Assembly (NCBI GenBank): GCA_963971425.1
Contig: OZ020521.1
Location: 4,605,519 to 4,669,518 of the forward strand
Source of the DNA: Bryoerythrophyllum caledonicum
Lineage: Eukaryota > Streptophyta > Bryopsida > Pottiales > Pottiaceae
DNA: 64,000 nucleotides
Direction: 5' to 3'
In this document: positions 5,295-54,729 of the stretch, piece by piece
How the letters are laid out: each line of letters begins with the position of its first letter
Position numbering within the stretch: position 1 is the stretch's first letter
Position numbers and translations under genes: made by a program
Notes under the pieces: generated by a model
Databases searched by the model: none
Told to the model about the DNA's origin: nothing
The model's input: the letters and a program-made list of their open reading frames with translations, nothing else

Positions 5295-6764
<1,470 letters not shown>

Positions 6765-6805
6765 ATCATGCAACACCATAATAGTTGCTCTCATGGTTTT
6801 GCTCC

Positions 6806-6845
6806 AAACCCTGAAATTCTAAACCCTAAACCTTTAACCCTTTAA
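6806..6845 (+). promoter_or_regulatory. Telo-box-like AAACCCT words downstream of AKR copy 1
   Basis: Three AAACCCT/AACCCT words lie 40-80 bp past the AKR stop, and copy 2 has the same cluster at 18068-18105. Plant telo-boxes have this core, but here they sit 3-prime of the gene, so any function is doubtful. Confidence 0.3.
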
Positions 6846-13440: not shown

Positions 13441-13442
13441 TA

Positions 13443-18025: not shown

Positions 18026-20772
18026 ATCATGCAACACTGTAATAGTTGCTCTCTCATGGTTTTGCTCCAAACCCTGAAATTCTAAACCCTGAACCTTTAA
18101 CCCTGGAACGTCGGAGCCCATCATCGTGGATGATGTGGAAGTTGGGAAGATGATTTTGGATGTAAAAACGTTGTCTATCGTTCAGTATCAGATCTCAAAT
18201 TCATTTTTCGGACACTTTGTGTCCGCTTCGACGTTCTAGGGTTAAGGACCAGAGGGTCACTTTTGGAGTAATCTGTGAATTTGGTGGACTCTTATTTCAT
18301 CTCTGTTTGATCCGCGACCTAAGCTAAGTTTTGAGGATGTGCGCCTCCTACGTGTGAGAATGTGGGCCTTTGACAAATGCTGTGAGAATGTGCACCTCTA
18401 ACAAATGCTGTGAGAATATGCGTAGAGTCTGAGGGGTGAACTTCAGTAATTTACGTGAAGTGCAGTTGGGATGAAATGTACCCTCTCTATAGATGATGTT
18501 CTACATGGTCTATCACACTCGTAGATTCTTCCCAGCCCTCATGAGCTCAACGGGTTATGAGAAATAAAAATGAGATTTTGGATATGTGTACAGAGTACGT
18601 TTCTGGTGGTAAAGTTTTGGCGTTTGTTTATTCAGGTGTGGGATGGAACGTCGGTGTGAAGCTCTTGATGTTGACTGTAATCTATGATGTAATATCATTA
18701 CATGAGCTCTTGACTTCTCCATTCTCTTTGTGAGAAGGGGTGGCATGGTACCATGAATGTGTGAGTCTTTTTTTCTTAAATGCAAATATGTACGTGGTGT
18801 GTGCATTTTCAAACAAAGCCTCGATGGTTTATGTGGGATCCCATCGATGGATCGCAAAACTTGTCCACACACATATTACATGTGGATGGCTCGCTTGTGA
18901 AATTAGACAACAATCTTAAATTGGGAGTAAACTTTCTATGTACAAAATATGGTGGAAATACTACTAGGCCCACATTGAATCTCCTATCATGTGTATCTAG
19001 ATTACTTCAAAATTCTAAGGGCTTGTTGTCTGAAGAATTAACTAGCAGACAAAGATATAAATGAAGATTGATATGATTGCACTTCAAACATCTCTTCTTT
19101 ACAAAATTTAGACATTGAAAGCAAGAACTATATGAATAGACACTTCATTCATGCCGGTCTTTAAAATGATCAAAATTCTTCTTTCAAAATGAAATGGGTA
19201 AGCTAGAGCCACCCAATTCTGATCACTTAAGCTAGTTGGGGACTCAAATGACATTGTCCAAATAACATTTAATATGTAGAAAGATGCGCAATTAGGAATG
19301 AAACTCAACAATTAGTCTCAAAGATTTGGAATTGATATAGAATTTAAAAGCCCAAAAACCACGGGAGCCCAAAATCAAATTGTAGAGTAAATGAGATTTG
19401 GTGCCCTCTTTTGTCCAATGCCAATAAGTGAGAGTGAATAAAAAGAAAGAAGACATGCCATGAATAACCAACTCATGGAGGTACCCAATACCGATCGGCC
19501 TTGTTTGACTTTCGAGGCAAGGCCACTAATGAGAACTCAATTGAGGTGGAGCAACCCAAAATTGCACACTTCATGACCCAATGCCGATAATGACTCGTGT
19601 TTTTAGATTTTAAGCTATCAATTTTGGATCGCTTCATGCACCATTTCATGCATTTACCATTGTCATGCACCATTCCATGCATACTCTGCTCATTGAAATT
19701 GGGGGCCGATCAAAATTGGGTGCCTCTACCTTATATAAAGTGAAAACTGTTGTAATCAGCAAGTTAAAAAATTATACAATCCACAAAATTCTGCACAAAC
19801 ATAACTACTATCTGAAAGCAACACCTAAGCTCATCAATATTACATACTCAATGATTATAACCTAGAATTTCCAACCTCCTTCTCAATTGTAGGTAAAATC
19901 CAGCCAATTTACAGGAACAGTTGAATCATCCTTTGAAAAACCTTCTCCATGAGTACCATGGTAAAAATCCTCCTGCAATTGCCAAACAAAAGAGCATTCT
20001 TTATATCACTACTCTTATAAACTGAGTGGCAAATCTAGGGCATCATTGAATTGTTCCCACTGACTTAGAGAATGGAAAAACTAGGAGGTGGCTCATTCAA
20101 CTCGGAGAAGTGAAAGAGAAGACGATTGAGCAACATTACCACAGTTGCCGCATCGGAAGTAGTATCCAGCCTTCTTAACAAGCCCTGATCCACCGCATAC
20201 TGAGCACCGTTGCTGAGCGGCCTGCAGCAATTACGCCTCATAATAGAGTTAGTTACTTGTAAAGTCACCCAATTTAGTCTCAATATGATACCAGTCTTTT
20301 GATTTTATAAAACTACTACTCTTTCCTCACAAAGTCACAGAGTATGTGTTGACGTAAGTACTCACGTACTATATATTAATACTGGAGTATGTGTACTCAA
20401 CACATATTATGCTACTGTAAACGTGTTGCCTGGTGAGGGACGGAGTACCGGTACTCCTACGTACTCAACACCTCGGACTCAGGTACGTGAGTTCAATGCA
20501 CCTTGTGACCCTGTTTAATCACTCTTAATAGCTATTAAATTGATGGAAGAGTTTGGTGGTCTCAAGAGTTAAGCTAGCAACACATTTAACCGTCATTCAG
20601 AAGGAAGAGAGAGAGGTCATGTTGTTTCCGAGCTGCCTTCTTCCTTGAAGAAAATTGAGAGCTATTTAGGGCTCATTTCAGGTCAAAATGCTTGGTATTG
20701 TTGCCTGACTTTACAAACAACTCTAATATCAAAGTAAGTGTCACCATTCCAATCTATAATTTGAGCTGGTTA
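18026..20772. other. AKR copy 2 downstream flank, no gene recognised
   Basis: Aligns with the copy 1 downstream flank (6765-7683 and 9949-11141) with many small differences. Extra material includes a roughly 130-bp stretch near 18105-18240 and a run of GTGAGAATGTG-type words near 18350-18425. A roughly 230-bp piece at 20115-20440 is also absent from unit A. No convincing ORF. Confidence 0.55.
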
Positions 20773-22144
20773 CACTATAAGAAACCCGTGTTTTTTGTGA
20801 CAGGGCAACTAACGTGCAATTATGTTTTGTGCAGCATCCGGCACGTCAACGTTGACGTCCAAAAAAATCCGTTATAATTGACATGCGAAAAACATGCCAA
20901 AATCTCAAAAAACAGGCCCACGTTTTTTAAAACATCACAAAAACTTGGAGGTTGAAGGTGTTAAAAATCTGCCATGTGGCTGCCACGTCGCGTCCACGTC
21001 ATCGCCACATGGACGGGCAGTGCCACATCCCCAACTTTTTCATCCGGGCCCTTGGTAATGTGGCCCATGATGTGGCGCATGACGTGGCATTAGATTGTGA
21101 CTAGGCTTGCATACGTGGACCCGCCATTTTATGACGTGGCACCTTTAAAATATGACGTGTCACTTTTAAAATATGACGTGGCATGTCCAATCAGCATAGT
21201 TTAATGCAATAATTAATTGTGGACAGTGTAAATTGGGACGTCATTTCTAACACGGTATGTTTTCTGTGACGTTCGTTATGACGTTTTCTGTGACGTTCGT
21301 TGAGATGGAGGTCACCAAAAGCAAGCACCAAGTCAGCAAAAGTAAGTGCCATGTCACCAAAAAGAAGTGCCATGTCATCAAAAAGTACCGTATCACTTTA
21401 AGTTTCAAGGGTAATTCAAATTCATCCAAATAGATGGATGAAAGTGAATCACTCTTGATTCAAGTGTGATGAGATAGGAGAGAAGGCCTTACATATATAT
21501 ACAATGGGATGCACAAGTGGTGACAATCCATATGGGATTATTGGATTTGTCATGGTGTTAGCCTCGTGTTAGCATAAACATTAAAATGTCACAGTAGATG
21601 TCCATCCAGACGTCTGTTCCAACATCCTCTTTGCCTACATGGCAGCTGATTTCAACCTTGCCTACGTGGCACAAACATTTTTAAAAGAATCCAATTTCTA
21701 CCTTGCCTACGTGGCTCAAACATGTTTTCTGTGATGTCAGTAAGGACATTCACGTTTTTTGTGACGTCAGTAACGACATCCACGATTTTATTTTTTTTAG
21801 GGGTCAGCCGATCTCCATTGTGTTTTAACCGTTGGGTAGTGTTTTACGGGAGGTTGCAGTAACAATCTCCAAGTTACTCACAGTAAAGTTGAAACCCCCC
21901 TGCCGACGTGGCATTGTCACCTTTCTGAGGACGTTGTCTAAAACATGACTATGTTCACTAGGACGTCCCGCAAAACAAATACGTTTATGCTAACATCTTC
22001 GCGTTTTTCCGCCAATTTTTCCATGTTTGGTGCAACATCCACCAGAATCCGAGAGCCCAAGGCTCGGCCCGTTCGCAAAAACATGTTTTGAAAAACACAC
22101 TTGATCACAGCTAACGTCATAAAAATCACGGGTTTCTTATAGTG
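20773..22144. mobile_element. Non-autonomous CACTA transposon 1
   Basis: Begins CACTATAAGAAACCCGTG and ends with the inverse, CACGGGTTTCTTATAGTG. It is flanked by the 3-bp duplication TTA (20770-20772, 22145-22147), as expected for CACTA elements. Unit A has the empty site as a single TTA at 11142-11144. It is 1372 bp with no transposase. The body is packed with ACGT-core words (GACGTGGC, CCACGTC, GACGTTC) in both orientations, presumably subterminal transposase-binding repeats. ORFs inside (for example minus 21191-21373) are repeat translations. Confidence 0.93.
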
Positions 22145-22478
22145 TTACGACAAATACTAGGAATGCGTTTTACTTACAATACGCTTGCTGAACTCGATTC
22201 CCGCCACCACGAACGGCGTCACTCCAGCTGCCAATCTCACACACACAATTATAAGCCCCGCTCGCAAATTACACCTCAACCCAATGCCCGCCATAGCCCA
22301 CCTTCGTGTAAACCCAACTTCAAATTCAAGGAAAATGATGGAATAGCAAGAATTTTCTCACCGAGAGCTCCGGCCCAGATTTGCCAGATGAGGTCAGGCG
22401 CAGCAGTCTGCACGGATTGCGAGGCCTCCACGAGCTCCGACACAGCACGCACTCTGCGATGATCCCTACTACGGAGCG

Positions 22479-33011: not shown

Positions 33012-33160
33012 GAAGAAGAAGAAGAAGAAGAAGAAGAAGAAGAAGAAGAAGAAGAAGAAGAAGAAGAAGAAGAAGAAGAAGAAGAAGAAGAAGAAGAAGA
33101 AGAAGAAGAAGAAGAAGAAGAAGAAGAAGAAGAAGAAGAAGAAGAAGAAGAAGAAGAAGA
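33012..33160 (-). repeat. (TTC)n microsatellite, about 50 units, LINE 3-prime tail
   Basis: Uninterrupted GAA on the plus strand, TTC on the minus strand. It directly follows the hairpin at 33160-33186 in the direction of the LINE, as short-repeat tails do in CR1/L2-type LINEs. Ser/Leu/Phe homopolymer ORFs here are artefacts. Confidence 0.85.
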
Positions 33161-33186
33161 ACGCCGGTCTCCAAAGGAGGCCGGCG
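33160..33186 (-). other. 3-prime hairpin next to the (TTC)n tail
   Basis: ACGCCGGTCTCC, AAA loop, GGAGGCCGGCGT: a 12-bp stem with one mismatch. It is GC-rich in AT-rich surroundings. Its position just before the repeat tail suggests a reverse-transcriptase recognition hairpin. Confidence 0.6.
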
Positions 33187-33486
33187 TGAATAGAGTGTCT
33201 GTTCGTTCCACTACTAAGACCATGCCCACAGGACAAGGAATTAGTAAGCTGGAACTACTTCCCTCTCTCGAGGGTAGACACTATGTAACAAGTAGCCAAA
33301 GAACCGCCAAACAACCAACCAACCAAACGAATCACAAGCTTAGCAACCAGTCAACAAACCGACCACGAATTAAGCAAGTAGTTAAGAGACCTCAAAACCA
33401 ACTAGTCATGATAAATCAAGGCGGGAGAAGAATTTAGGGGGGGGGTCATGTGTATCAGGGAGGGCTTGGTTGTTTTCGATTTTGCG

Positions 33487-35616
33487 TTAATGTAGTAAAA
33501 TGGAAATGGCATGTTGAGTAGCGATAGTGTTAATGTTTTTAAAGGTGTTTTTAATTGTATCAATGGGTATTTTGAAGGTATCTTCAAGAGTCTTCATAGA
33601 TGGGATAAAGGTGGTGGCCCGGGCGCCGGATGTGATTACAATAAGAGGGTCCACATTCCATCCGAGGGCAGTGATGTCGTCAATAAGGGGTTGGTATTTA
33701 TCTATTTTATTTTGGATTGTTTCCAGGGAGAATCTATCGTTGCAATATGTGAATTCAATGAATTGAACGGTGTAGTCGTGGTTGATGTTATCGGGTGGTG
33801 GGTCATTGTATGGCAATCCTTTGACACAAAGGATGTCTGGTTTGAGCCTGGCGTTGCAATGACATCTTTGGGTCATACACGAGCATGGGAGTAGCCAAGG
33901 GGGGACCGTATTTTCCTGTGGATTATTATTAAAAGTGCCAGCGTTCATTAGTATGAAACATCTCGATTTATTATATGAGGTGATTAGTTTTCGAATTTCC
34001 CATACCGCTTTATTATGTCTTTTAACAATTAGAGAATGTATGTGGTGGTTTTGGCATTTGAGTAGAACATGAAGCCATGTGTCGGGGTCCGTTGAGAGGC
34101 ATATGGGGCATGTTATGGATGGGAATCTTTCTATTCCAAAGAAGAGTTGTTTGCGAGCGTTACCCATATACTGACCAATACCGAATTTGATGAGGCATGT
34201 TATTTGTGAGTCTGAGATGATGGGGTTTTTCCAGAAGTTTGTAGAGAGTTCATTGTCTATGTTGTTATTGTTAGTCCATTTTTCTATGTTAGGAATATTT
34301 TCTGAGATTGTGTCAAGGTTGTTATGTAGGTCTTGTTTTTTGAGATATTTGTCCAAAAATCTAATTGGGCCTTTGTCGGGGGTATCTTCTTTGGAAGGCC
34401 AATCTTCTTTTTGAAAGTAGTATGGGGTAGCATGGGCATGCTCGTGTGGGTCTTTGGCATTTTTGTGTGTTTTTTCGCAACCTTCTTTTGCTAATTTGTC
34501 TGCTTGTTCGTTGCCATCAATGTTGGCAAGGGCTCTCACTTTGTGGGGGGTTGTGATTTGTGTACGGTTTTGTAACATTTGGACCATTGACGTTAGTATG
34601 GTTTGGTCGGGGTGGCTATTGTGAAGGGTAGGGTGTGTTTTTTGAGTGTTTAGTAGGTAGAGTGCATTTATACAATCGGTGAATATATGTGCGGGTTCAT
34701 CATTGTATTTTGTTGTGATGATTTGTAGTGTTTTGTGAATGGCCATGAGTTCCGCTCTGAGGATATTTTGTAGTCCATGAAGTCTTTTGACTAGTTTAAT
34801 TTCTTTGGTAGAATTATATATACCATAGCCAGCTTTTTCTCTGCGCCAGGAGCCCGGGCTAATTTGTTCTGGTGGTTTGAAGGAGCCGTCGGTGTAGTAA
34901 CTGTGTGTGGGGTTAAATTTTGGTGTGGTATGGATTTGGTAGTCTGGAAGAGGGGGAGGTATGACGGAGTAGTTTAATGTGTTGTTGACATAGTTTAATT
35001 TTGACCAGTTTTTACTTTTGTTTACGGGGGTTTGTATGGGTGTTGGTGGGGCCAGTTTTGTGTATAGTCGCTGTATGTCTAGATTGTCTGTGATGGAGGT
35101 AAATTCCGCCAGTTGTTCTAGAGAGCCAAGGGTTTGATTTCGATGATGGACGCATAGTATTTGTAATGTAGATGTCTCTATTGAGGGTTTTTTTAGCTCG
35201 GGTGGAATAGTAGGTTCTTCGTATGGTGTTGTGTCTGCTTCAAATAATGCAATGATATGGGAGTTTGGGAATGGGTTTGAATGTTGGTTGTTGTTTTGGT
35301 ACCAATTGTTGTTCGGTGAGATGATGATTGTATTTGTGTTATTTGGATCCTGTTTGGCGGCTAGTCTAGCCCAGTGTATGGCTTGTTCCATGTCCTTCTC
35401 GTTGTGGGGGTGGGCTATGCTATTACCGATCCATTTGTAGTCAAAAGCCTTTCCTAGGGATCCAAATATTTTGTCTCTTTCATACGGTGAGTAGAATTTT
35501 TTGAGTTTGGTAGGACATGTGACCGGGGAAGAAAAGTATGATTGCTCGATGTTAAAGGATGAGATTAGTGAGTCTAGAATGGGAGTGGATATTGTGTATT
35601 GGGCATTTTTGAGGGG
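33487..35616 (-). pseudogene. LINE ORF2, 3-prime part: MTase-like segment, RNase H, CCHC, restriction-like endonuclease
   Basis: Open from 35616 to a TAA at 33487. Residue numbers count from the Met at 35391. Upstream of it the frame encodes PILDSLISSFNIEQSY and RDKIFGSLGKAFDYKW, the methyltransferase-like part. RNase H: Asp168 (YYTDGS), Glu214 (RAELMAI), Asp239 (IFTDC), Asp298 (GNEQADKLA). CCHC: Cys428, Cys431, His441, Cys446. The REL part has KRHN (457-460), a CxCx4CxC cluster (503-512), Pro518-Asp519, Glu546 in FIEFTY and Lys565-Tyr566 in KIDKYQPL. After the TAA the same frame continues RKIENNQAL, as if the stop replaced a codon near the C-terminus. Confidence 0.85.
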
Positions 35617-36400
35617 TCAGTTTTTGGTATTCGGTATTTATACCTTTGGTAGAGCCATATTAGTTCGGTTTCAAAGGATTGGGTCTTTGGTTCGATGTTT
35701 GTAGGAGTTTGTAGTTTTGTATTTTATTGATTCCATAGCCATTGGAGTCGGTTAATGGGGATGGTGTGTAAATGTCGGCCGTTTTCTTCGTATAGATGTG
35801 CTTGGTTGTTAGCTATTTGAATTGTGTTTGAGGATGTAAGTATATCATTTTCGGGGTTGCATTCTGTTGTGTATATGTTTAAAAGTGGGATAATTATGAG
35901 TGGTGTTACAGATCTTGAGTCTGAGGCTTGTTCTTATGGGTGGTGGACAAGGATGATATCTGAGAATATTTTGTTTTGGATTTTTTGGTAGTATTGTTTT
36001 AATTTTTCGGTGTTATGTGTGGAGGTATTGGTGTCGTGCCGTGGAAAAAGGTCTCTTTGGAGGAGCTATTTATTGTATGTATTATCATTGTGTTGCCATT
36101 GGCATAGATATTTTGTGTAGGTATTTTGTATGTTATTTGTGTCTGTGTGTTGGATATGTTTATGGCTTGTGATGTTATTAATGGGATATGTGGTAGGGTT
36201 TTTGGGGATGTATGTAGGGGGACGGGGGTTGTATGTATGTGGAGGGTTAGGAGGGTTGGTTGGTGTGGGGATATTTCTTGGGATGATTTTATTGTTGAGG
36301 GTGATGAATGAGTCTTAAAGTATGTGAGAGTATGGGTGTATGTTACAAGGAGTGTGACATATACTGGGGCAAGTAGGGTGGCAAAATAGTTGTTTAGCAA
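35617..36400 (-). pseudogene. LINE ORF2, frameshifted linker between RT and RNase H
   Basis: Coding can be followed only by switching frames. 36400-35999 is open in one frame. 35640-35700 encodes FETELIWLYQRYKYRIPKTD, then needs a shift at about 35617 to join QYTISTPILDSLI. The latter part fits the start of the methyltransferase-like domain. The first part, rich in Thr, Ser and Pro, is not recognised. Confidence 0.55.
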
Positions 36401-37988
36401 TATTTAGGGCACTTTTTAGTAGTTTGGATGGGGTGAAATGGTAGGTTTTAAAGTCCTCATTGTTCATGATGTGTGTGCCGTTGGGTAAAGTAATTTGGGA
36501 TAGTTCAAAGACATTTTTTGAGAGGAGTTTTTGTAGAAGCTTTTGGGAGAGTTGGGCATTTAGTGTGTTGTGGTTTAGTATTTCTTGGCGCCATAATATT
36601 TCTAGTGTTGTAGGATTAGTGAGGAATTTTGGGAGTGTACTTTTAAGATGTACTTTAGCTATATGTTTTAATAAGAAGAGTGTTCGTGTTATTGGTGATC
36701 TTATGCAGTCACTTTTTTTAATTGTGGGTATGTTTTCGGCGCCACCATATTGGGCAAGGACATACTGAGTTAGACCATTATATATTTTCCCAAGCCTTCC
36801 TTTATCGTTTAAAGCATTTTGTAGTTGTTCGCCTATACATCTGAGATATGCGTTTTTGAGGAAAAAAGCTTCAAGTCCAAATAGGTTATGTGGAAGTTGG
36901 GTTATTGTATTTGACATACATTTTGGTAATCCACATATGGTTTTTTGTATGGCTATTATTTTTTTATCAAGTTTTTTGATAGCTGGCATAGAGTATGGTA
37001 CACCATAGAAACTGTATGCCACACCTGGGCGTAGTACGGTATCAACCATTTTTATTTTTTGTTTCATTGTGGCTGGACATGTTGTTAGTTCTTTGCATTG
37101 TTTGATGAGTTTTGTCGTTGTGTGGATTTGGATTTTCCATTTTAGTGAGGGAACAAGGTTTGTACCTAAGTATATGTATGGTTCATTTTGGTGTAGTATG
37201 GAGATCGGTTGATTGCCGTAATTGATGTTAGAGGCTTGCATTAGGGCTTTGAAAGTGGTAGGGTTCAGTTTGGATTTGTTTGGGCATCCTATAGCGGCAC
37301 ATTTTGGGACACCTACGTCCATACCGGCCGATTTACAATATCTATCAATTTTGTTTCGTTGTATTTGGATTGATTTGATTTTGTTAGTTATGGTGGCTAG
37401 GTCATCCGCGTATGCGGCGGAGTTTATTGTGACCTGTGATGTGCCAAAAGTGTACCCGTAATTGCCTCTTTCTAGCCATCTGAGTAGTGGTTCTAAAAAT
37501 ATAATGAATAGGTATGGGCTAAGGGTGTCCCCTTGTATAGTTCCTCTTTGGATGGGTATAGGTTTTGTTTTCCCAAAGTGTTCAGCGGTATAACAAGTAG
37601 ATGACTGAGAGTAGATGTTTCCAACAAGTGTAGTTGCCTCTTTTGGGTAACCAAGGTCCATCATTATTGCTAGGAGTCGGGAATGGTCAATTGAGCCAAA
37701 GGCATTTTTGAAGTCCACGTAAAGTATGTATATATCTTGGTTAGTAAATTTTGCGTCTTCTAGTGCGGCGATTATAGTTTGTATTTGTCGTGCAGTACTT
37801 CTCTCTGCTCTAAATCCTTCTTGACTATCGTGTAGGATTTTGAATTTCTCTCCGTATGAGGATAATATGGAGGTAAGTGTACTCGTAAAGAGTTTATATA
37901 TTGTGTTAGCTAGTGCAATTGGCCTATGGTTGGGTAGCATGGATAGGTTGCCTTTTTGTATAGTAAAATTGTTGTACTTGATTTCCAT
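36315..37988 (-). pseudogene. LINE ORF2, reverse transcriptase
   Basis: Residues from about 14 (KGNLSMLPNHRPIALANTIYK) to 230 are the RT core: DSQEGFRAERST, ILYVDFKNAFGSIDH with catalytic Asp92, QRGTIQGDTLSPYLF, and AAYADDLA with Asp195-Asp196. The thumb and a basic connector follow. The frame joins ORF 37910-39829 through a missing base in the run at 37953-37957: the upstream frame ends ILLYKK and this one resumes GNLSML. The open frame ends at 36315, and the coding sense continues in another frame. Confidence 0.9.
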
Positions 37989-39829
37989 GAGTTTGTTATT
38001 TGTTTTTGTTTATAGCAATGAGAGAAGAAAAGGAATAATAGTTTATGAAATCTTGGAGGCATGTTTTTGAGTATTGAGTTTGGTATGCGGTTTGGGCCCG
38101 GGGCTTTATTATTTCCAAGGTTTTGAAGGCATGTGTCGTATGTGGCTCTGTTTAGGTATTTATGTAGTGGAATTTCTGGTTCGCCCCGTTTGTCAAGGAT
38201 ATATCCGCCCAGGTCATGCCATGGGTATTGGCGTACTGCACATGTACATTCTATAGTATGCTGTGGCTGGTAATTACATGTTGGTACTATTGGTCTATTG
38301 GTTTTTGTTTGTTGGTTAAATATTTCATTCACAATGTCTACGGGGCTAGTTAGTATATTATTATATTGATCTGTGATACAATCCATTGGTGGGGATTCAA
38401 GGTTTTTAAAGACTTTTTTGTTAATTTTTTTTGGGCTTATTTCGTATATTTGTCTATATTTTGAGATGGCTTTTTTAATGTTTTCTTTGGTGTATTTTGT
38501 GATTATTTTCCGGGCTTGTATGTTGGCATTTTTTGCAATTAATGCGATATCTTTTATCCATGTATCGTGGGGAAGGTCCGGAGGCGGTGGGGTGGGGATT
38601 TGGATGTGTTGTAGAGTTAGTAGTTCATTGTATATGGGGTGGTTACTCCATTGAGAGTTGTTTTTTACAATTCTAATGGTTTTGCGTATGGTATGGTATG
38701 TGGTTAAATGTTGTTTCCAAGTTTTAGAAAGTTTGCGGGGTAGGTACCCGCCTTGTTGAGAAGTTTTGTTTGTAAATTGAGGCATTGGGTGTGCTCTACA
38801 AGTTTGTTCTAGTGTATCAGAGATTTTATTGATGAGTTTGTCTAGGGTGTGGCATGCTTCTTGCCATTGTGCTTGTGTTAATTGACTATTGTTTTCAAGA
38901 TTGTTTATGAGGGAGTCTATTTGTACGGAGTTTTCTTCAAAAAATTTTGTGTTGAATTTTTCTATGTTGGTTTTTGGGATGGGGTTGAGTATGCGTATAG
39001 TGTCTTTGTTTAGGATTGTGGGAGTTCTACTAATTAGTGTGTTACTTGGGATGTGCAATTGTACGGGTGAGTGGTCCGAGTTGAGAATAATATCTTTGTT
39101 TGTTGTGGAGGTGCATTGTGTATTGTTGTTTGTATTTATGTAGAATCCATCTATTAGACTCCAATCACAATAATTATAGCCACCTTGTTTAGAGAATTGT
39201 GTATCGGTATTAATGTAATTAAAGTTTAAGTTTTCTGTGAAGTGACGCCATTGGTAATCAATGTTTTGAGGGGGGGTGTGGTGATTTCCATTTTGGCGGC
39301 CAATTAGCGCTATGTCTCTGTTGAAGTCCCCGCATAGTAGGTATGTATGGTTGGGATTATTATTAATTTGGGATGTAATAGTGTTTTGTATATCTAAAAT
39401 GTATTTAGTATCTTCGGGATGGGATGGCATATATATGTGAAATATTAGCCTTGGTTGTAGTGGGCGATTAGTGATTTTGATTATTTGAATGTATGGTGAT
39501 ATGTGCATTGGGGTAGGGATTTTGTTGATGTTGCCCGGGAATGCATATTTTTTGTGTATTAGTGTAAGGAGGCCACCGCGGCCCGGTGTGTATGGTCTTC
39601 GTTGTTGGATGCATCTTGAAAGTGCATGTGTATTATTAAAGATGAGTTTATAGTTTTGAAATATATTTTGTATATATTTTGTAGATTTTGTGGCAGTGAG
39701 TTTTGTTTCTTGTATAACTATGAGGGCCGGTGGTGTATCTGTGTGTGTAACTAAAGTTTGTAAGCTAGGGAGGGCAGTGTTTAGTGAGGAGGCATTCCAT
39801 GTAATTATGTATGTATTTTCTTGATTTGA
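37910..39829 (-). pseudogene. LINE ORF2, 5-prime part: APE endonuclease and RT N-terminus
   Basis: Open from 39829. APE motifs in order: ITWNASSL, IVIQETKL (catalytic Glu), GRGGLLTLI, LLCGDFNRDI and LNSDHSPVQLHI (catalytic Asp-His). The RT N-terminal block NNKAPGPNRIPNSILKNMP follows. The first in-frame ATG (39508) lies inside the APE domain, so translation must begin upstream without AUG, by reinitiation or frameshifting from ORF1, which overlaps by about 23 nt. A one-base loss near 37953 ends this frame prematurely. Confidence 0.88.
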
Positions 39830-40680
39830 TCAATGTTTTGATTTTGAGGAGGGATGTAGGGTAGAAGTGGGGGTGGGTGGGTGTATTCTGGTATGGGGTC
39901 TAGACATTTTAGAGATTCATTTATTAGATTGTTAGGGAGGTAAGGGAATTTCAGTTTTATTGTTTCGTTTGAGGAGGGTATGGTTTGACTATGTAAGAAG
40001 TCGTATAGTCTTTTATGTATTGAGTTCTCATGGTTTATAATATTTTGGTTGTCTTCCAGGAATTTAATATAAGGGTGCGGAGTGCAAATGTGTCGTTCTG
40101 GTGGGTTTTGTAGGTTTATTAATGTTTGTAGAAGTGTATTGGTCCATGTAATTGTGTTCAAATTTTGTGGATTTAGAAGATGGTTACATTTATCTATTTT
40201 TGGATGAGTAGTGATTATTAGTGTATATAGAATATGGGGTAGTGGATGCATATTTTTTTGTTGTATGTATTGGGCAATGTTTGGGTGGGTAGTGTTGTGT
40301 ATGTGGTGTAATGTATGTGTGTTTTTTAAGAGAGGTGCGAAGGATTTCGCAATGTGTCCATATTCTGGTTGGAGTTTTATGGTATTAGGTATGAAGTATA
40401 TTTTGGCATTTTTTTTATGCTTTATGGGATGTCTTTTTAAAATATTTGGCATGGGTCCGGGGTTGGTTTCTATGTCTCCTCCTAGAAATAGTAGGAGTTT
40501 GTTATATGTATGTTTAGTGTTGTATTTTAACGTTTTTATTTTTTGTATAATTCTTTGAGGTTTTGTTATGTTATGAAGGTCTTGTTTGTTTGGGGGGAGG
40601 TGGATGTTTATATTTTGTATGATGGTTATGCGTTTTTTATTTATTTTTGTAGTGGGTGTATTTGTATTTATTTTAAACTT
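39805..40680 (-). CDS. LINE ORF1 with N-terminal 2A ribosome-skipping motif
   Basis: Open from 40680 to TAA at 39805. Around codon 70 it reads LLLFLGGDIETNPGP and then MPNILKRHPIKHKK. DIETNPGP (40476-40453) fits the 2A consensus D-(V/I)-E-x-N-P-G-P, which releases the upstream peptide between Gly and Pro. The downstream part is basic and rich in His, Asn and Pro, without a recognised RRM or zinc knuckle. No ATG precedes the 2A in frame. Several ATA codons lie there and one may be a mutated start; otherwise initiation is non-AUG. The tail overlaps ORF2. Confidence 0.8.
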   Translation of the reverse strand, partial: KFKINTNTPTTKINKKRITIIQNINIHLPPNKQDLHNITKPQRIIQKIKTLKYNTKHTYNKLLLFLGGDIETNPGPMPNILKRHPIKHKKNAKIYFIPNTIKLQPEYGHIAKSFAPLLKNTHTLHHIHNTTHPNIAQYIQQKNMHPLPHILYTLIITTHPKIDKCNHLLNPQNLNTITWTNTLLQTLINLQNPPERHICTPHPYIKFLEDNQNIINHENSIHKRLYDFLHSQTIPSSNETIKLKFPYLPNNLINESLKCLDPIPEYTHPPPLLPYIPPQNQNIDQIKKIHT

Positions 40681-40683
40681 TTA

Positions 40684-40850
40684 TTGTGTCCATGTGTTTA
40701 TTTGCTTAGTTGTTTTTGTTATGTTAATGATGTTTAGGTGTGTTTGTATGTGGGTAATGGATTTTTTGTTATTTATTTTTATAGTGGGTGTAATTGTATT
40801 TGTTAACTTTTTGTGTCCATGTGTTTACTTGTGTAGTTGTTTTTATTATT
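40684..40850 (-). repeat. Tandem repeats of about 126 bp in the LINE 5-prime region
   Basis: Plus-strand TTGTGTCCATGTGTTTA occurs at 40684 and again at 40810, followed in both cases by a similar GTAGTTGTTTTTATTA-type stretch. The intervening sequence also matches that before ORF1 (TAGTGGGTGTA...ATTTGTATT). Repeats of this kind are common in LINE promoters. Confidence 0.6.
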
Positions 40851-40859
40851 GTTTTTTTG

Positions 40860-41700
40860 ATGGTGTATAGGTGTGTGTATGTTTGTTTGTATATTTTTGT
40901 GGATGTGTTTGGCCGTGTGTGTGCGTGATTATTATGTGTAGGAGTATTTGTGTATGGATTTATCTTGGTGTTTAGGGGGGTATTTAAGTCGTTTTTATAT
41001 GTAGTTGTGTTAGTATATGTGTTGGGATCTATACTAGTGTTTGCTTTGATGTTTGTATTAGTATGTATTTCAGTATCTATATTGGTGTTTATACTTGTAT
41101 TCATATAAAGGTCGGTATTTTGATATTTTATTTTGTTCGTTTTTGGTTGTATGTATTTCTTTATGTATGTGTGTTTGTATGTGTTTCTTTGTTGGTGCGT
41201 AGTTGTTTTTATATATGTGTGTGTATGTGCCGTTGTATTTGGTTTTGAATTAGTATTTATACATATGTTTGTGGTGGTATGATCCTTAATACTTGTGTTA
41301 ATATTTATTTTTGTATTTGTTTTAGTATGCGTACCGGTATTTGTGTAGGTATTTGTACTAGTATCTTTCCCATTGTTTGTGTTAGTATTCGTATTTTATT
41401 CCGTGCCGGTATTTGTATTAGTATGTGTATAAGCTACAGTATTTGTATTAGTATCCATACAGTATTTTATATTGTATGTCATATAGTGTAGTATCAGTTC
41501 AAATTTTGTGTGGGTTTTTTGGGAGATGTGTAAAGTTTTATTTTGAATATATATACCTTTTGTATAGTTTTTTGTGTAGAATGTATTTGGGGTTGTGGAT
41601 GTAATAGTATGTATGTTTGTACACCTTTGTATGTATAAGTGTATAGTTTTGTATTTAATTTTGCAACAAATACAATGGGTGTAGGTCTTGTGTATAAAGT
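40860..41700. repeat. Low-complexity GTAT-rich tract
   Basis: Strand-biased T/G-rich sequence with recurrent GTATTTGTATTAGTAT-like words (dense at 41040-41470). It is probably LINE 5-prime UTR or flanking simple sequence. The Asn/Thr-rich minus ORF at 40769-41104 is a translation of this tract. Confidence 0.5.
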
Positions 41701-41766
41701 AGTCTAATTTGTCAAACTTATCATATACTATGATGAAAATACTTGTTACCTTGTAGTCTTTGGTCG

Positions 41767-42012
41767 TTACATGTTTGACGGGTTGCCTTCCAAGCTTGGT
41801 TTGCCAATTGAGCTCGTGATGGCTTGCATTGTTGCATATGCGGCTCCCATGGATTCTTGGATACTTAGCATTTGGACCCTAAGTTCTTCGTTCTTTGCAT
41901 CCACATACTCCTTCACTACCAACCTCATCTTCTTGTTGCTTTCTTCCACAACCTCTACTATATCCATCTTTGTCAAAGAGGGAGGTGCTTCTTTCATCTT
42001 ATATGTGACCAC
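41767..42012 (-). pseudogene. Short coiled-coil ORF, possible gag N-terminus
   Basis: Eighty-one residues with a predicted amphipathic helix (KMDIVEVVEESNKKMRLVVK and following heptads). It sits immediately downstream, in minus orientation, of a candidate LTR. A retrotransposon gag leader is plausible, but no other gag or pol sequence follows before the LINE. Confidence 0.35.
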
Positions 42013-42089
42013 CGTTGTCGAGTAGCGAGAGTTTTTCTTTGAGAAATCGCGGAGATCCTAGCTGCTGCTAGAAATGGTTTGAGAACAAA

Positions 42090-43650
42090 GGTTGTCTCCA
42101 AATAAATCTCTAGTCTTGACCACCAAATCCTCTTGTCTTCAAGTCTTCAGTCTTCATTCTTCAATCTTCATTCTTCATTCTTCAATCTTCAAACTCCTCC
42201 CGGTTGGCCTATCATGTGGTGGTTCTAAAGGGTTAAAGGTAAGGGTAGGTGATAAGAAACCACGGCCTCGGACGGGTAAAACGGGACGGCCAAACCACGA
42301 GCTGACCGTCCAAAAGATTGGCTCCTAAACTTCAAACCCACGGTGACCAGCAATCGCGTCTCACCGGTGGGAACAACATAAACACGACCGTGTGGGCCAT
42401 TAACCCCACTTCGCCGCAACAAAGTTTACGAAGCAGAATTGAAAAACAACTAGCCTCCAAAACCGGCTGGGTACAACAAATAAAGACAACGAGCCTCCAA
42501 CGCCGGCTAGGAATAAAAAAGCCACAAGCCACAACACGCGAGTCTTCTTGTCTTCTTATCTTCAAGTCTTCATGTCTTCTTATCTTCAAGTCTTTAGGTG
42601 TTCAAAAACACAAAAGACCTCCCAAAGTTCTTTACCACACTAGCTGCGAGCTTCCGATTGATGCCACAGATGGATCAAGCCGCCAAATGCCAAGTGCTAT
42701 AACCTTTTGGAAAGCTGGTGCAATAAGCTAACACCTTCCAAAATCTCAGGTTATTCTAAACTACCTTCTAAAAGTTATGGAGGTTCAAAGTTTGTGCCTT
42801 CTTATGTCGATGGCAGCAAACCCTCTCCAACTTCGGCGGCTATAACTTCTATACTACGATTTTAAATGAGCCGTATAATAGCTTTATAGAAAGCTAATTT
42901 AATAAGCTACAACTCCTCTAAATTTCACTTCAAACTAATCTACTCACCAAAAGTTGTGTAAGCTTAAAACTCACGACTCCCCACTTCCAAGACGGCAGAA
43001 CTCTCCTCTACTTAGATGGCTATAACTTTTTCATAGCGCACTTAAATGAGTCAAGTGATAGCTTTTTAGAAAGCTAGTACAATGAGGTATGCTTCTCTGA
43101 AATTTGAAGTCCGAACACAAAGTATCGAAGCCGTGGTGAAGCCCGAAGTGACTGCTCCTCTATTCAGGTGGCAGCTAACTATTTTTCACTCAAACGCTCG
43201 TAACTTTTGCATAAGAACTTCAAATTGAACAAAAACACCGCATAAAGAAGCGCAACTTCACAAGGAACAACTCCACAAACTTTCATAACATTCTCATGAA
43301 AAACGAGTACTCACCGCCCGATCTCCTTCTCGGGAATTTTCTCACAGCACTCCCTACACACCAAAAATACACACCAAGAAGAAAGGAGAGTCACCCCCCC
43401 CTTATCCTTCCACATCAACCCATGCCTAAGCCACATGGGCATCTAGAGCCTATTGGTTAATCTCCTAAAGCACTCTAAAGTCTACCAAGATAAGATAGGA
43501 AAGAAACCCCAACCATTGGGCTTCAAAAGGTGTGGTTCCAAAAGAATTCTAAAACGGTCAAACTTTTTCTTAGTTTCTTTTCTTTTTCTTTCTTGGATCT
43601 TGATCTAATATAAACATAAACACATAACAAACTCCTATATTAACAACTAA
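42090..43650 (-). repeat. Candidate LTR remnant with TCTTCA repeats and AGCTTT hairpins
   Basis: 42125-42200 and 42540-42600 are tandem TCTTCA(A/T)TCTTC-type repeats. 42690-43090 has three GAAAGCT...AGCTTT hairpin units, the inverse of the repeat type at 24250-24960. The order fits a minus-strand LTR followed by the coiled-coil ORF. Ends and target duplication were not found. Confidence 0.4.
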
Positions 43651-43667
43651 ATGGATTCTACCTTTAT

Positions 43668-44090
43668 CTAACCGTATAAAAACTTTAGAATTTGACGGAA
43701 CACCGCTGAAACATAACTTGCTCTCCGTTCATCGCTTAAAAAGGTCAGCGGCCCTCGAAGCCAAAGACGGTGGCCCATCTCATTAGAAAAGCGACTCACC
43801 ATTTGGCCTTCATTGGTATTTTCAAAACACCCTTTAAACACCATCTGACGGCCACCTGTCAATGAAGTTTTAGCCTCCAATACAATCACTAGAGCTCTCG
43901 CGTCCGGTTGTAGATTCACAAATGCAAGTTGCCGCAGACTTGGATCTGGACGTAGTTGAACACGACGCTCGGAAAGCCCCGCTTCATCTCGCACTCGCCG
44001 TCTGGAAGTTGATGGCTGAGAAGATTGAAACGGATCCTCCAGTAATTGCGATAACGACAACTCCCACTCATCTGGATCTTGAGAATTCAT
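43668..44090 (-). CDS. Unknown 140-residue protein
   Basis: Starts MNSQDPDEWELSLSQLLEDP, acidic, then a Ser/Arg-rich stretch, then a more structured second half (ALVIVLEAKTSL, GHRLWLRGPLTFLSDERRASY). I do not recognise it. A TATA-like word lies 71 bp upstream of the ATG. No neighbouring coding sequence joins it. It could be a short retroelement ORF or a chance ORF; the start context and TATA box make it worth listing. Confidence 0.35.
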   Translation of the reverse strand: MNSQDPDEWELSLSQLLEDPFQSSQPSTSRRRVRDEAGLSERRVQLRPDPSLRQLAFVNLQPDARALVIVLEAKTSLTGGRQMVFKGCFENTNEGQMVSRFSNEMGHRLWLRGPLTFLSDERRASYVSAVFRQILKFLYG

Positions 44091-44160
44091 ACTATCAACT
44101 CTAAGCTATCCAAGCTATTGGCTTGAAGCAAATCATGTGAGGCAAAGAAACTATCTTCCT

Positions 44161-44168
44161 ATTTATAT
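44161..44168 (-). promoter_or_regulatory. TATA-like element upstream of ORF 43668-44090
   Basis: Minus strand GAGATATAAATAGG, correctly placed (about 70 bp) before the ATG at 44090. Confidence 0.4.
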
Positions 44169-44339
44169 CTCTCAGTAACTTCTTTAAGAAGCTTGCCTTC
44201 ACTGAATTACTCAAATAGCCATAAATAATTCTATTTTAACTAAAAGTAGCCCGCATCAAAAGATCTGGCTAAAGGATAAGGTCGCGACATTATATAGTCC
44301 CTCAATAGTTGTATAAAGTCGCCTTGAGTCCACTAATGG

Positions 44340-44425
44340 TCGCCAAGTTGCGGACTTGGTTGGCTGTCAAGGTCCGTTGATTGTTGCCTGCCGGTTCCGG
44401 GTTCGAGCTTTATCAAACTCGTCGA
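44340..44425 (+). other. Possible tRNA-derived SINE fragment
   Basis: GACTTGGTTGGCTGTCAAGG resembles an A box region, and CCGGTTCCGGGTTCGAGC about 30 bases later contains a good B box (GGTTCGAGC). The pairing of a full tRNA is not visible. It adjoins the second CACTA element. Confidence 0.35.
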
Positions 44426-44525
44426 ATGGCCTGGATAGTTGCAACTTGGTACTTGCTAGTGAAAGCAGGAAATAAGCAGTCAACCGGCCACCTACGCTTC
44501 CCTGAGCTATTGTGACAAGATGTAG

Positions 44526-45944
44526 CACTATAAGAAACCCGTGATTTTTGTGACGTTAGCTGTGATTGAGTGTGTTTTTCAAAACATGTTTTTGCAAACG
44601 GACCAAGCCTTGGGCTCTCGGATTCTGGTGGATGTTGCACCAAACATGGAAAAATTGGCGGAAAAACGCAGAGATGTTAGCATAAACGTATTTATTTTGC
44701 GGGACGTCCTAGTGAACATAGTCATGTTTTAGACAACGTCCTCAGAAAGGTGACAATGCCACGTCGGCAGGGGGGTTTCAACTTTACTGTGAGTAACTTG
44801 GAGATTGTTACTGCAACCTCCCGTAAAACACTGCCCAACGGTTAAAACACAATGGAGATGGGCTGACCCCTACAAAAATAAAAACGTGGATGTCGTTACT
44901 GACGTCACAAAAAACGTGAATGTCCTTACTGACATTACAAAAAACATGTTTGAGCCACGTAGGCAAGGTAGAAATTGGATTCTTTTAAAAATGTTTGTGC
45001 CACGTAGGCAAGGTTGAAATCAACTGCCACGTAGGCAAAGAGGATGTTGGAACAGACGTCTGGATGGACGTCTACTGTGACATTTTAATGTTTATGCTAA
45101 CACGAGGCTAACACCATGACAAATCCAATAATCCCATATGGATTGTCACCACTTGTGCATCCCATTGTATATATATGTAAGGCCTTCTCTCCTATCTCAT
45201 CACACTTGAATCAAGAGTGATTCACTTTCATCCATCTATTTGGATGAATTTGAATTACCCTTGAAACTTAAAGTGATACGGTACTTTTTGATGACATGGC
45301 GCTTCTTTTTGGTAACATGGCACTTGCTTTTGCTGACCTGGTGCTTGCTTTTGGTGACCTCCATCTCAACGAACGCCATAGAATACGTCATAACGAACGT
45401 CACAGAAAACGTCATAACGAACGTCACAGAAAACGTCATAACGAACGTCACAGAAAACATACCGTGTTAGAAATGACGTCCCAATTTACACTGTCCACAA
45501 TTAATTATGCATTAAACTATACTGATTGGACATGCCACGTCATATTTTAAAAAGTGACACGTCATATTTTAAAGGTGCCACGTCATAAAATGGCGGGTCC
45601 ACGTATGCAAGCCTAGTCACAATCGTATGCCACGTCATGCGCCACATCATGGGCCACATTACCAAGGGCCCGGATGAAAAATTTGAGGATGTGGTACTGC
45701 CCGTCCATGTGGCGATGACGTGGACGCGACGTGGCAGCCACATGGCACATTTTTAACACCTTCAACCCCCAAGTTTTTGTGACGTTTTAAAAAACGTGGG
45801 CCTGTTTTTTGAGATTTTGGCATGTTTTTCACATGTCAATTATAACGGATTTTTTTGGACGTCAACGTTGACGTGCCGGATGCTACACAAAACATAATTG
45901 CACGTTAGTTGCCCTGTCACAAAAAACACGGGTTTCTTATAGTG
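44526..45944. mobile_element. Non-autonomous CACTA transposon 2
   Basis: Ends CACTATAAGAAACCCGTG and its inverse, flanked by TAG duplications (44523-44525, 45945-45947). It is 1419 bp and closely related to CACTA 1 but inserted in the opposite orientation. It has an extra tandem expansion of a GAACGTCA(C/T)AGAAAACGTCATAAC-type unit near 45365-45455 (one copy in element 1, three here). Dense ACGT-core words as in element 1. No transposase. Confidence 0.92.
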
Positions 45945-46055
45945 TAGGCTTCCAAGTTATGCTAACAAGCTCCGGTTATCCCTCATTGAAACAAACCGTG
46001 GATTTCTCCACGACCCCAACCTTTTGTATCCTTCTCCTCATATTCTATCCGATGT

Positions 46056-48120
46056 CTAAGGCAACATCTTTAATATTTTCACACAATATATTAATTTACA
46101 ACGCGACACCGTGTTGACCATGGCGGAGCTGATGTTGTCGAAACCAAAGTGTTTGATTTGTTCTTGTGAGGGCGGCTCTTCTCCTTCCAAGCTCCTACGA
46201 TGTGGTGCAAAGTCCACATAATTTCCTTCAATGGTGTATGTTTTTCCGACAAACTCACGGTATGCAATGGGGTTAGCACAATGTACATTTACACTACCAT
46301 TGTGTCTAGTTCCAATCACTTTGTGGAACCAAGTCTCTTTAACGTTATTTGCACCTATGATTTTATGGATTATGTTGGTAGTGTCAATGACTCTCATACG
46401 GAGAGGTAGGGGAGAGAGGGTGAAGGTTAGAGCGTCTTTCTTAGCTTTGGAGGTATGCGTGGTTCGGCCTCCGGAGATGTGCTTGGCATGGAGTACTTCA
46501 TGTTGAGTTGTAATTTGGTGGAGGTTGATCATTTTTGGCTTGCTCCGGGGTTGTGGCAATGATGAACGCGTGTGAGTCCTCTTTAAGCTTGTGTACTCCC
46601 GTGACTTCGATCTCTTGCTCTCTTGTGAAGCTATTGTGTAGAATGTCCTTGAAGAGTGCTTGTGCTGAAATTCCTACAATGGAGTCACTCTTCACCTTCA
46701 CGGAGAGGTTAGAACTTGCAATGTGATGGAAACTCTTGCAAACCTTGCCTATGGTATTATGACCATCAATTTTGAGTATAAAGGGTCTAATACCTTTGAG
46801 CATCATAAGACCATCAATTTCAGGTTTTAATAGGTGCAATTTAACGATACCCGCCCAAACTCCCTTCTTTCCACCTTTTTTAATACTAAGGCATTGTATA
46901 GAAATTGGATCAAAAAGGTCCTAACCAAGTTCGATTTCCATAGATTCAAGTCTTTTAACAACCATGCTTCTAACTTCATCATGCATCATGTGGGAGGTAG
47001 GAGGCTCAAAATATATAGCAACTTGGAAATCTAGTGCCAAACCTGAGGCATTATTGACAACAATGTCACATGGAACCTGGGTTATGTTGAAGTGTTGTCC
47101 TTCCACGCCGTTTCTTGTACTTGAGTATAGTTGCTGGGGGATCCTTGGGAAGGCGACTTTGGAACTACTTGCTTCTTCTGCCTCCTCCTTCTAGAGGCCC
47201 CTGACCATCAAGTTTTGGGTTGTCTCCTTTCTGGGAAGTTCCTCCATGCCCTCCTCTTGTGCAAGAGTCTCCATCACCTCAAAACCAAACCAAAAGTTAA
47301 AGCCCATGTTCAAGGGTTCGAGTGTGAAGGACTTACCTCTTCCTTCAGGGATGTTCTTATATTTCTTGAAGCTGCTGGTCGCTTCCTCCGGTTTTCTTGC
47401 AAGCTTATCCTTCATGGATGAGGTGAAGATTGTTGTAGGGGACTCAACTTCCATGTCTTCCTCAGAGAATAAGTTTCTTTTGGGGTCCCCGTTGGACATT
47501 TTTGAAAAGGAGGAGGTGTTTTGATGGGAAAGACTATTAAGGAGGTTGCTACTGGTGATGTATGGGGTTGTTGTGGGTTCAGTGGGGTCACTAAGGTGGG
47601 TGAGGAGGTCGCTATTGGAGGAGAAGGGGGACGCTACTGGTTTAGGGGGGTCACTATTGGTGTGAGGAGGGTCGTTTTTGGTTAGTTGGAGGGTCTCTGA
47701 AGTTTTGAGAAGGTCGCTAAGGGTGTGAAGGAGGTCGCTATGAGTTTGTGGAAGGGTCGCTACTGGTTTGGGTGGATTACTGTGGCGAAGAAGGGGGTTG
47801 CTATGGGTTTTTTCTAGTGTCGCTACGGGTTTGGGAGGGTTTTGAGGGGGGTTGCTGTGGGACGTTGGGGAGGGGAGCTGGGGCGCTGGGAAGGCTGGGT
47901 AGGTGGGGTCGTAGCTGGTCTGCCTGGGGTTGTTACGCACAAGGAAGGGAGTTGAAACCCCTGGTTCTTGCGGGGGGAGGTGGGTCTTGATTCCAGCTAT
48001 CTGCGGGGAGTGCGTTTGGGGTTCGGGAGTTCTCCTTGCGCCGAGGTTCTTCTCTTTGTGTGCTGTATGTTCTTGTCTAATTGTGTCTCCAGGATTCAGC
48101 GTAGGATTGCGCTGGTACAA
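46056..48120 (-). pseudogene. Decayed retroelement ORF1-like region
   Basis: Three minus-strand segments read as one broken protein. 48120-47191 is Pro/Ser/Thr-rich with a repeated SNPPKPVATL-like unit, ending in MGFNFWFGFEVMETLAQEE. 46839-46498 contains MMLKGIRPFILKIDGHNTIGK. 46559-46056 contains TLSPLPLRMRVIDTTNIIHK, GSVNVHCANPIAYREFVGKT and APHRRSLEGEEPPSQEQ. The order and the absence of RT suggest the ORF1 of a LINE-type element cut off before ORF2. I base this on general character, not a recognised domain. Several frameshifts. Confidence 0.4.
47560..47880 (-). repeat. Imperfect tandem repeats encoding SNPPKPVATL-like units
   Basis: A GAGGTCGCTA / GGGTCGCTACTGGTTTGGG word recurs at roughly 30-36-bp intervals, about eight times. 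It encodes the low-complexity N-terminal part of the ORF1-like region. Confidence 0.6.
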
Positions 48121-50060
48121 GTTTTGATCTGTGTGTTCTAGGAGTTTGTGTCTGATTTCGTCATCAAGGTGCTGTGCAGGTTTCCGTTGGTACAGGTATT
48201 GTTCTTTGTGCTCTACTGGTTCTAGAGTGTATTGTGGTGAGGATTCGGGGGTGTTCTTGTGTGTTTGATCTAGGTTCAGGGGTTTAGTGTCGGAGTTTTT
48301 AAGGGCGTGGAGGGGGTGGGGCTGTGGGGAGAAGGATGAGTAGTCAGTGGGGAAGGGGGAGATGCTATTGAGAGGCTAGGAGGGTCTGCTGGGGTGGGGG
48401 TAGGGGTTGTGTATACGTGGGCTTGGCGGAGTATGTCCTGGGTAGGGAGCTGAGAATGAGAAGGGGAGGTCGTAAGGTGAGAGGATGTGGCGATAGAGCT
48501 GGAGAGGGAGGAGGGAGGTTTGGGAATGTTTTCTGTTTCAAAGTTCTGTACTATGCTTTCCTGGTTCGGGTGGATTTTTGTGTGTGCTAGGAGTTCTGGG
48601 TTGTGGTAGGGTGAGGTTTCGGGAGGAGTTTCCTATGTAGGATCCGGGTTCAGGGGTTCCGGGTCGTGGTTTTTGAGGGCGGAGAGTAGGGGGGCCTGTA
48701 TTGGGAAGGGGAGGGAGGCTGTGGGGGAGGGGGGAGCTACTTTTGAGATCCGAGGGAGGGCAGCTAGAGGGGGGTGGGAGTTGTGGGGGTGTGCGGTTGA
48801 GGTTTGGGAGGGGCTGTGGGAATGTGTAGCAGGGGGTGCGGGGCTGGTTTAATGAGCTGGGGTAGGAGGTGAGGGGGCGTGGGGGGAGAAGAAGAGAAAT
48901 TGGGGGTGGAGGGGAGAGAGAGGTGGTGGAAGGAGGGATAGTGGGATTGTGAAGATGTGGGATATAGTGGTGAGAGCTGTGAGGAGGAGCTGTGTGGGTG
49001 TAAAAATGAAGTTGCAGAAAGAATTGAAGGTGTTATATGAGTTCTTACCTTCTTACTTGATCTTGATCTTACACGTCCGTGGGGCCTTTGCTCCTGGGTA
49101 GTTGTCTCTTGTCTGTTGGACTTCTGCTGCTGGCTGCCTCTGGGTCTCTTACAGCTGCTGATGGTGTGTGGGGTTGGGATGTTGTTGCAGATCGCAGGTG
49201 GACGGGCGTGTTGGGTCCGCGCTCCTATATGTGAGTTGACGCCTCTGTGTATTCCTTATGCTCGTTGAGTGGATCTGTGTTGATTTTGCCAGCGCTTCCG
49301 CGTGTAGTGTGTAGATACAATTTTCCTAGTGCTATGTTTAAGAGTTGTGGTGTGCCTAAGTGCTTGAGATGTGGTGTTTAGTGAGAAAGGTTTAAAGACT
49401 TGTGCTTTGAATATGACTATGTTGCTGTAACAAAGAGAAGAATGGTGATGAGGGTTAGTGAGGCACGTACCTAGATTCGGGAGAGTTGATCTTCTTGGTT
49501 GCTTGTGCAGATTTGGTACTGCGCGTGCTAGGGTCTCTGTCAACTCTGTGGGCGATGTGTTTTCCCGCGCACTTGGATCTGTTGCGGTGCCTTTGCTGCA
49601 GGCAGCTCTTCTGCTTCTGCAGTTGGATTGCACGCTTCTGCTGGATTTCTCACTGCAGCCCAATACTGAATATGCAAATCTATATGTTGTGTTAGTAGGA
49701 TCTAGTGTAAGTAGTAATACATAATCGCAAAAGAAAAAGGGGGGTGAGGGGTAGCCTGTAGTGGTAAATGGCAGCTACGTCGCAGTAGTATTTGATGATG
49801 TCCAAAGAGTGTTGAGTGCTTGTGACTTAGTGATGAAGTTGGCTCCTTGTGTTGCTCAATTTCTTGTATGGTGTGGTTGTGGATCAAGGAGGATCAAGGA
49901 CTAAGTGGTGGGCGCAGATCTCGATCTAACTACACTCAATCTGAACAGATCTAAGGTTAAGGAGGGTCTTTGAGTTCAGATCTATGCACAATACTATTTT
50001 CCCACGCTTCAGATAAAACTTGCAACAATCTCCCTCAAAAATTGTCCATAACCTCTCAAA
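48121..50060. other. G-rich region, no gene recognised
   Basis: Strongly strand-asymmetric: plus strand G/T-rich to about 49000, with GGGGAGG and GGTTTGGGAGG words. It is probably the 5-prime region of the ORF1-like element. Short ORFs at 49256-49724 on both strands are not convincing. Confidence 0.4.
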
Positions 50061-54672: not shown

Positions 54673-54729
54673 GGCTACTCTCCAAGGGCCTCTCCAAATC
54701 TTACAAAAAAAATTCACAACAAAAAGCTT

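Follow-up and report, generated by a model that had tools for sequence, protein, structure and literature searches.

A broken copy of a probable Dualen/RandI-type LINE with two endonucleases and new modules in a land plant

The locus and its family

The window analysed here, a stretch of 64,000 nucleotides (nt) of Bryoerythrophyllum caledonicum DNA (assembly GCA_963971425.1, contig OZ020521.1, forward-strand positions 4,605,519–4,669,518), carries on its minus strand a long interspersed nuclear element (LINE) with signatures of both an apurinic/apyrimidinic-type endonuclease (APE) and a restriction-like endonuclease (RLE). Judged from its sequence, it is probably a disrupted copy of a very large dual-endonuclease LINE of the Dualen/RandI type, one that was active recently and has new modules. 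The whole element runs from about 50.06 kb down to a (TTC)50 tail at 33,012, and its frames are overlapping and interrupted over 33,487–40,680. An earlier model-made account of the window (the preliminary description) placed it at 33,487–39,829. That span, the 3′ half on the minus strand, does encode all of the motifs listed there, but its limits are frame ends and the element goes further, on the 5′ side through a StopGo/2A peptide (about 40.5 kb) and a first open reading frame (ORF1; 46.1–47.4 kb) to 5′ sequence at about 50.06 kb. Its recognisable parts are as follows.

33012–50059, minus: recognisable extent of the element; 5′ end approximate, with at least one later insertion inside
49801–50059, minus: 5′ sequence with 78% identity to the 5′ region of one full-length copy
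46092–47364, minus: ORF1 remnant, 55–70% amino acid (aa) identity to the ORF1 of other copies
44522–45946, no strand given: foreign repeat within the element, a 96–100% inverted match to 20,771–22,148
40453–40500, minus: StopGo/2A-like peptide KLLLFLGGDIETNPGP, by sequence match
39830–40452, minus: conserved segment MPNILKRHP... between 2A and APE, without a Pfam match
38984–39826, minus: APE endonuclease, by PF03372, motifs and selection
37038–37958, minus: reverse transcriptase (RT; YADD), by PF00078
35308–35607, minus: PCIF1-like domain with NPPF replaced by HPH, by PF12237 match
34477–34899, minus: RNase H, by PF00075
34054–34110, minus: CCHC finger (C503, C506, H516 and C521 of its frame), by motif
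33490–34053, minus: RLE region (KRHN, KPD594, E621, KxxKY), by signature and selection
33158–33291, minus: structured 3′ RNA with a hairpin at its end, a fold common to copies (L009:1169–1302)
33012–33161, minus: (TTC)50 tail, assigned to the element itself as its 3′ end by hairpin and target-site position

The foreign repeat is younger than the LINE, because it is located inside the LINE copy.

All match counts from our search of the 437-Mb assembly (894 contigs) are minimum values. With the 294-aa RLE end as query, at least 133 scored matches were obtained from 9,030 first-look candidates: the window copy, plus 132 more with 94–95% identity. All but one of the 133 are free of stops across this segment, and 14 lie within open frames of 3,000–3,764 codons. 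For PF12237, 2,614 candidates yielded at least 150 scored matches, all above the cut-off and 33 of them in a 3,087-codon frame, and a deeper subfamily (L058) is represented by at least 150 scored matches of 7,345 candidates at 66–100% identity. This is a large family, young in part, and the frames of the window copy, one of its members, are interrupted.

The anatomy was read from five copies picked for their long frames, each taken as two overlapping stretches. A copy consists of a 5′ part, ORF1, ORF2, a 3′ untranslated region of roughly 300 nt, the hairpin and (TTC)n; ORF2 in turn comprises a variable N-terminal region, 2A, the conserved segment, APE, a linker, RT, a post-RT region, the PCIF1-like domain, RNase H, CCHC, RLE and the stop. 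Measured end to end, copies C6 and C4 each have a length of about 14.7 kb. Where two copies diverge, they do so at a sharp 5′ boundary, and the 5′ end sequence occurs at 40 places in the genome (40 scored of 165 candidates). The 5′ modules appear to have been exchanged between copies, because ORF1 and the ORF2 N-terminus are unlike one another in copies (L039, L041, L043, L045 and L047) whose 3′ parts are 90–97% identical. The variable N-terminal region contains 123-nt (41-aa) tandem repeats and runs rich in Thr, Asn and Tyr, and further 2A-like sites upstream of the 2A peptide are partly decayed (NPRP, IPGP); together, the repeats and the decayed sites suggest, at the level of sequence, repeated swapping of 5′ modules ahead of 2A.

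The host is what the preliminary description took it to be. NAC genes and plant-type zf-RVT elements are marks of a land plant, and the genome holds 18 NAC loci (PF02365, 31 exon matches) and plant-type zf-RVT elements with at least 150 scored matches of 428 candidates. Scans of viral contigs found no relative.

Two endonucleases under selection

The N-terminal endonuclease was as first described: the translation of 38,984–39,826 contains ITWNASSL, QETK, GDFN and SDH at offsets 7, 38, 165 and 249. It matches PF03372 (E 4.4e-6) and also PF14529 (E 2.4e-4, below the cut-off of that model), and PF03372 is found N-terminal of the RT in the window copy and in the intact frames alike. The RT of the window copy matches PF00078 (E 1.5e-26). 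An RNase H predicted to lie between the two endonucleases is indeed there, with PF00075 at E 1.5e-10 in the window and at 1.3e-13 in segments of intact frames.

The minus strand likewise encodes the C-terminal RLE signature that had been claimed for it, C-x2-C-x9-H-x4-C followed by KRHN, KPD, E and KxxKY (here KRHN/KPD/IEF/KIDKY). The residues had been numbered C428, D519 and E546; their spacings hold, whereas the numbers are displaced by a constant 75 (C503, D594 and E621 in the frame 33,487–35,616). Among the 386 window frames of at least 60 aa, only one carries the signature, and when the 327-aa segment was shuffled 200,000 times with its composition kept, the signature never recurred; its second half alone arose in two of 50,000 shuffles. 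In two alignments (A1, with 14 rows from 13 copies, and A5), the rows that cover P-D, E and KxxKY retain them.

Ratios of nonsynonymous to synonymous change (dN/dS) were calculated by the Nei–Gojobori method with L040 as the reference copy. For L061+L052 (dS 0.79–0.95), dN/dS is 0.08 for APE, 0.06 for RT, 0.16 for the PCIF1-like domain, 0.05 for RNase H and 0.08 for the finger plus RLE. The window copy gives 0.15 for APE, 0.08 for RT, 0.22 for the PCIF1-like domain and 0.06 for RLE; L062+L059, for which APE was not aligned, gives 0.06 for RLE, which ranges from 0.06 to 0.09 across five diverged comparisons. Synonymous sites are saturated in L063+L058, for which identity to L040 is 64% in APE (201 of 262 codons), 77% in RT, 56% in the PCIF1-like domain and 69% in RLE. 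Very close copies yield noisy values (L048: APE 0.38, RLE 0.04, variable region 1.44). Because dN/dS is 0.08 for each endonuclease between subfamilies, purifying selection, as read from these substitutions, is maintaining both APE and RLE, and the low ratios of RT, RNase H and the PCIF1-like domain show that these too are under purifying selection.

A StopGo-like peptide, a PCIF1-like domain and a structured 3′ RNA

Three features were overlooked in the preliminary description: the 2A peptide, the PCIF1-like domain and a covarying 3′ RNA with its hairpin and (TTC)n. The peptide KLLLLLGGDIETNPGP matches the StopGo core (D/G/C/N)(V/I)ExNPGP as defined in PMC12846837. Between L039 and L041 (site 455), the 2A 16-mer has changed at 11 of 12.8 synonymous but only 3 of 35.2 nonsynonymous sites, while the 15 codons just upstream have changed at 19.5 of 34.8 nonsynonymous sites. 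The abundance of synonymous and scarcity of nonsynonymous changes shows that 2A is selected as a peptide and is translated from upstream. PMC12846837 found that plant viruses make no natural use of StopGo, and PMC4981915 places 2A-bearing non-long-terminal-repeat elements in trypanosomes and animals; our literature search on 2A/StopGo returned no title on a plant element.

Between RT and RNase H, the window copy matches PF12237 (PCIF1_WW) at 34.8 bits (cut-off 31.1; E 1.5e-8). All 15 family members scanned match this model, the best at 9.9e-14, and together with 150 scored genome matches above the cut-off this led us to reject noise as the source of the match. PCIF1 structures were reached by profiles, though weakly, with E 0.43 and 1.5 in one search and 0.034 and 0.24 in a second. 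The catalytic NPPF is absent: human ANPPF aligns to AHPH, with HPH in 14 of the 15 alignment rows and YPH in L060. Because this motif is replaced, methylation by the known mechanism is unlikely; RNA binding, or binding of a capped 5′ end, is the likeliest role of the domain. No title or abstract in our literature search mentions PCIF1 in retroelements. Separately, a weak chromodomain-like match (E 0.015, below the cut-off) lies between RT and the PCIF1-like domain, at residues 310–353 of L040:2877–4400.

The 3′ RNA was compared in 37 distinct copies out of 40 stretches; a 3′ end lacking the hairpin and two matches that fell within coding sequence were set aside. In the 37 copies, the last 134 or so nt share one fold, in which 99.0% of 1,477 cells are paired, against 36–47% when the fold is slid along the sequence. 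Six pairs show double changes (shuffle mean 4.1; reached in 3 of 500 shuffles), double-changed cells number 45 (mean 15.6) and covariation is 0.134 (shuffles 0.094), the last two values being reached in none of 500. By eye, 29 of the 30 3′ ends that were fetched have the hairpin ahead of (TTC)n; L020 has no hairpin, and L022 runs into poly-T. Target-site duplications (TSDs) of 11–13 nt, each starting with T, follow the tail in six of seven full-length copies. We therefore do not favour (TTC)n as a target microsatellite, since the hairpin precedes the tail in those 29 ends and the TSDs follow it.

In six copies (L064, L065, L071, L073, L075 and L077), a leader of about 17–36 nt, different in each, separates the common start from the 5′ TSD. 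An origin of the leaders in another copy or in one contiguous host locus was rejected, as both of the two that were tested are unique in the assembly, at the copy itself. Beside L017, on its 3′ flank, lies a second, inverted and related 3′ end that has a hairpin and a TTC-type tail of its own (by eye), hinting at more families with a like 3′ end.

Kinship, mechanism and known systems

The preliminary description saw in this element a relative of Dualen/RandI. Excerpts of PMC3636483 and PMC4640811 state that Dualen/RandI encodes APE and PD-(D/E)xK endonucleases, and PMC4640811 also gives it an RNase H. It is assigned in PMC4438587 to green algae only, in PMC8226300 to relatives of Chlamydomonas, and LINE/Dualen is annotated in cryptophytes in PMC12747079. 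Non-A 3′ repeats are reported for eight of eight green-algal RandI families (PMC3747384), a type that the (TTC)n tail, a non-A microsatellite, fits; the same excerpts give flowering plants L1 and RTE only. APE, RNase H, a selected RLE signature and a non-A tail thus speak for the kinship. As the preliminary description suspected, the literature on Dualen retrotransposons that we searched, Repbase and subscription journals being outside its scope, contains no well-described land-plant example. In that literature a dual-endonuclease LINE is unreported from land plants, and the layout is known mainly from algae.

Several observations weigh against this reading. Dualen carries a cysteine protease, and no protease family was found at E 0.1 in eight segments of intact frames. 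The Pfam scan of the RLE segment returned no matching model, and a PDB search with RLE profiles matched no R2 structure. RT bit scores overlap (R2 chains 93–110, human L1 76–78 and two further chains, which we take to be Bombyx R2, 60–65) and favour no side. RLE residues are lost in some copies outside A1 (the first lysine of KxxKY in L054, one finger cysteine in L066). The region ahead of 2A is weakly constrained (dN/dS 0.27–0.91; ten pairs, three bins), the 3′ RNA shows no excess of additional pair types (26, against 26.8 in shuffles; reached in 494 of 500), and the full-length copy C3, one of the seven, is without a TSD.

Target-primed reverse transcription is established for LINEs, and we infer it here because of the TSDs, the 3′ RNA fold and the variable 3′ repeat. 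During translation, 2A would separate the enzyme polyprotein from its fast-evolving N-terminal extension, and the enzyme would bind the 3′ RNA fold. One endonuclease would nick the first strand and so prime cDNA synthesis at the (TTC)n end, the other would position the complex or cut the second strand 11–13 nt away, and RNase H would remove the template. We favour this division of labour because both active sites are conserved. It is possible, though unlikely, that RLE is instead kept for target binding only, together with the CCHC finger, and that APE does the cutting. The TSDs of 11–13 nt do resemble those of APE-type LINEs, and no common target sequence is evident in the seven copies save the first T of six TSDs; however, the aligned subfamilies retain P-D, E and the lysines, residues that would be unneeded for binding alone.

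The dual layout might also have arisen independently of Dualen, in an L1- or R2-like LINE that gained a second endonuclease and works alike without being a member. To this we give a low probability: neither the PCIF1-like domain nor 2A is among the Dualen features in the excerpted descriptions, and the missing protease and indiscriminate RT scores suit it, but the set of APE, RNase H and RLE signature is the same and the 3′ repeats are non-A as in RandI. A bolder elaboration of the favoured scheme, which we consider distinctly improbable, would have each endonuclease cut one strand, second-strand cleavage thereby being achieved inside a single protein, while a captured, catalytically dead cap-methyltransferase fold recognises the element's own RNA by its capped 5′ end, selecting full-length transcripts and promoting template jumping that leaves the 17–36-nt leaders; the element would then be the first dual-endonuclease LINE of a land plant and the first natural plant user of StopGo. 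That this is an ordinary plant L1-type LINE with RLE-like motifs that are chance or a dead remnant is scarcely credible and was rejected: L1-type zf-RVT elements do occur in the genome and profile searches against structures did not confirm the RLE, but the shuffles, the dN/dS of RLE and its presence in deep subfamilies contradict it.

Elsewhere in the window, direct repeats of 85–100% identity, about 8.5 and 11.3 kb apart (4147–6951 and 12625–18351), represent a local duplication that includes an aldo-keto reductase gene (PF00248, E 7.2e-33). Tc1/mariner-type transposase frames, unexpected in a land plant, lie on the minus strand at 14010–14690 and 54094–54753 (DDE_3, E 1.9e-14; HTH_Tnp_Tc3_2, E 2.1e-12).

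Two long-standing questions about LINEs are how RLE gave way to APE and which enzyme makes the second-strand cut. Dualen/RandI is the group in which both cutters are known, and many near-identical copies with both of them under selection in a land plant make these questions testable. In addition, the element provides a StopGo-like peptide that occurs naturally in a plant genome, and it places a PCIF1-fold domain within a retrotransposon.

Comparison with known systems sets each part in context. The PCIF1-like domain shares with the cap-adenosine methyltransferase PCIF1/CAPAM the PF12237 match and weak structure matches, but has HPH for NPPF and sits within a retrotransposon protein. Like the 2A-bearing APE LINEs of trypanosomes and animals excerpted in PMC4981915, the element has a DxExNPGP peptide upstream of its enzyme part; in contrast to them, it resides in a land plant and carries an RLE signature. 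With RLE LINEs of the R2 type it has in common the C-terminal signature of CCHC, KRHN and PD..E..K, and an RT that matches an R2 chain at E 1.5e-30, whereas its N-terminal APE, RNase H, 11–13-nt TSDs and dispersed sites set it apart. From Dualen/RandI, known here from descriptions, it differs in its land-plant host, its length of about 14.7 kb, its 2A peptide and PCIF1-like domain and the lack of a detected protease, but it shares with those elements the joint presence of APE and the signature of a PD-(D/E)xK endonuclease, the RNase H and the non-A 3′ repeats.

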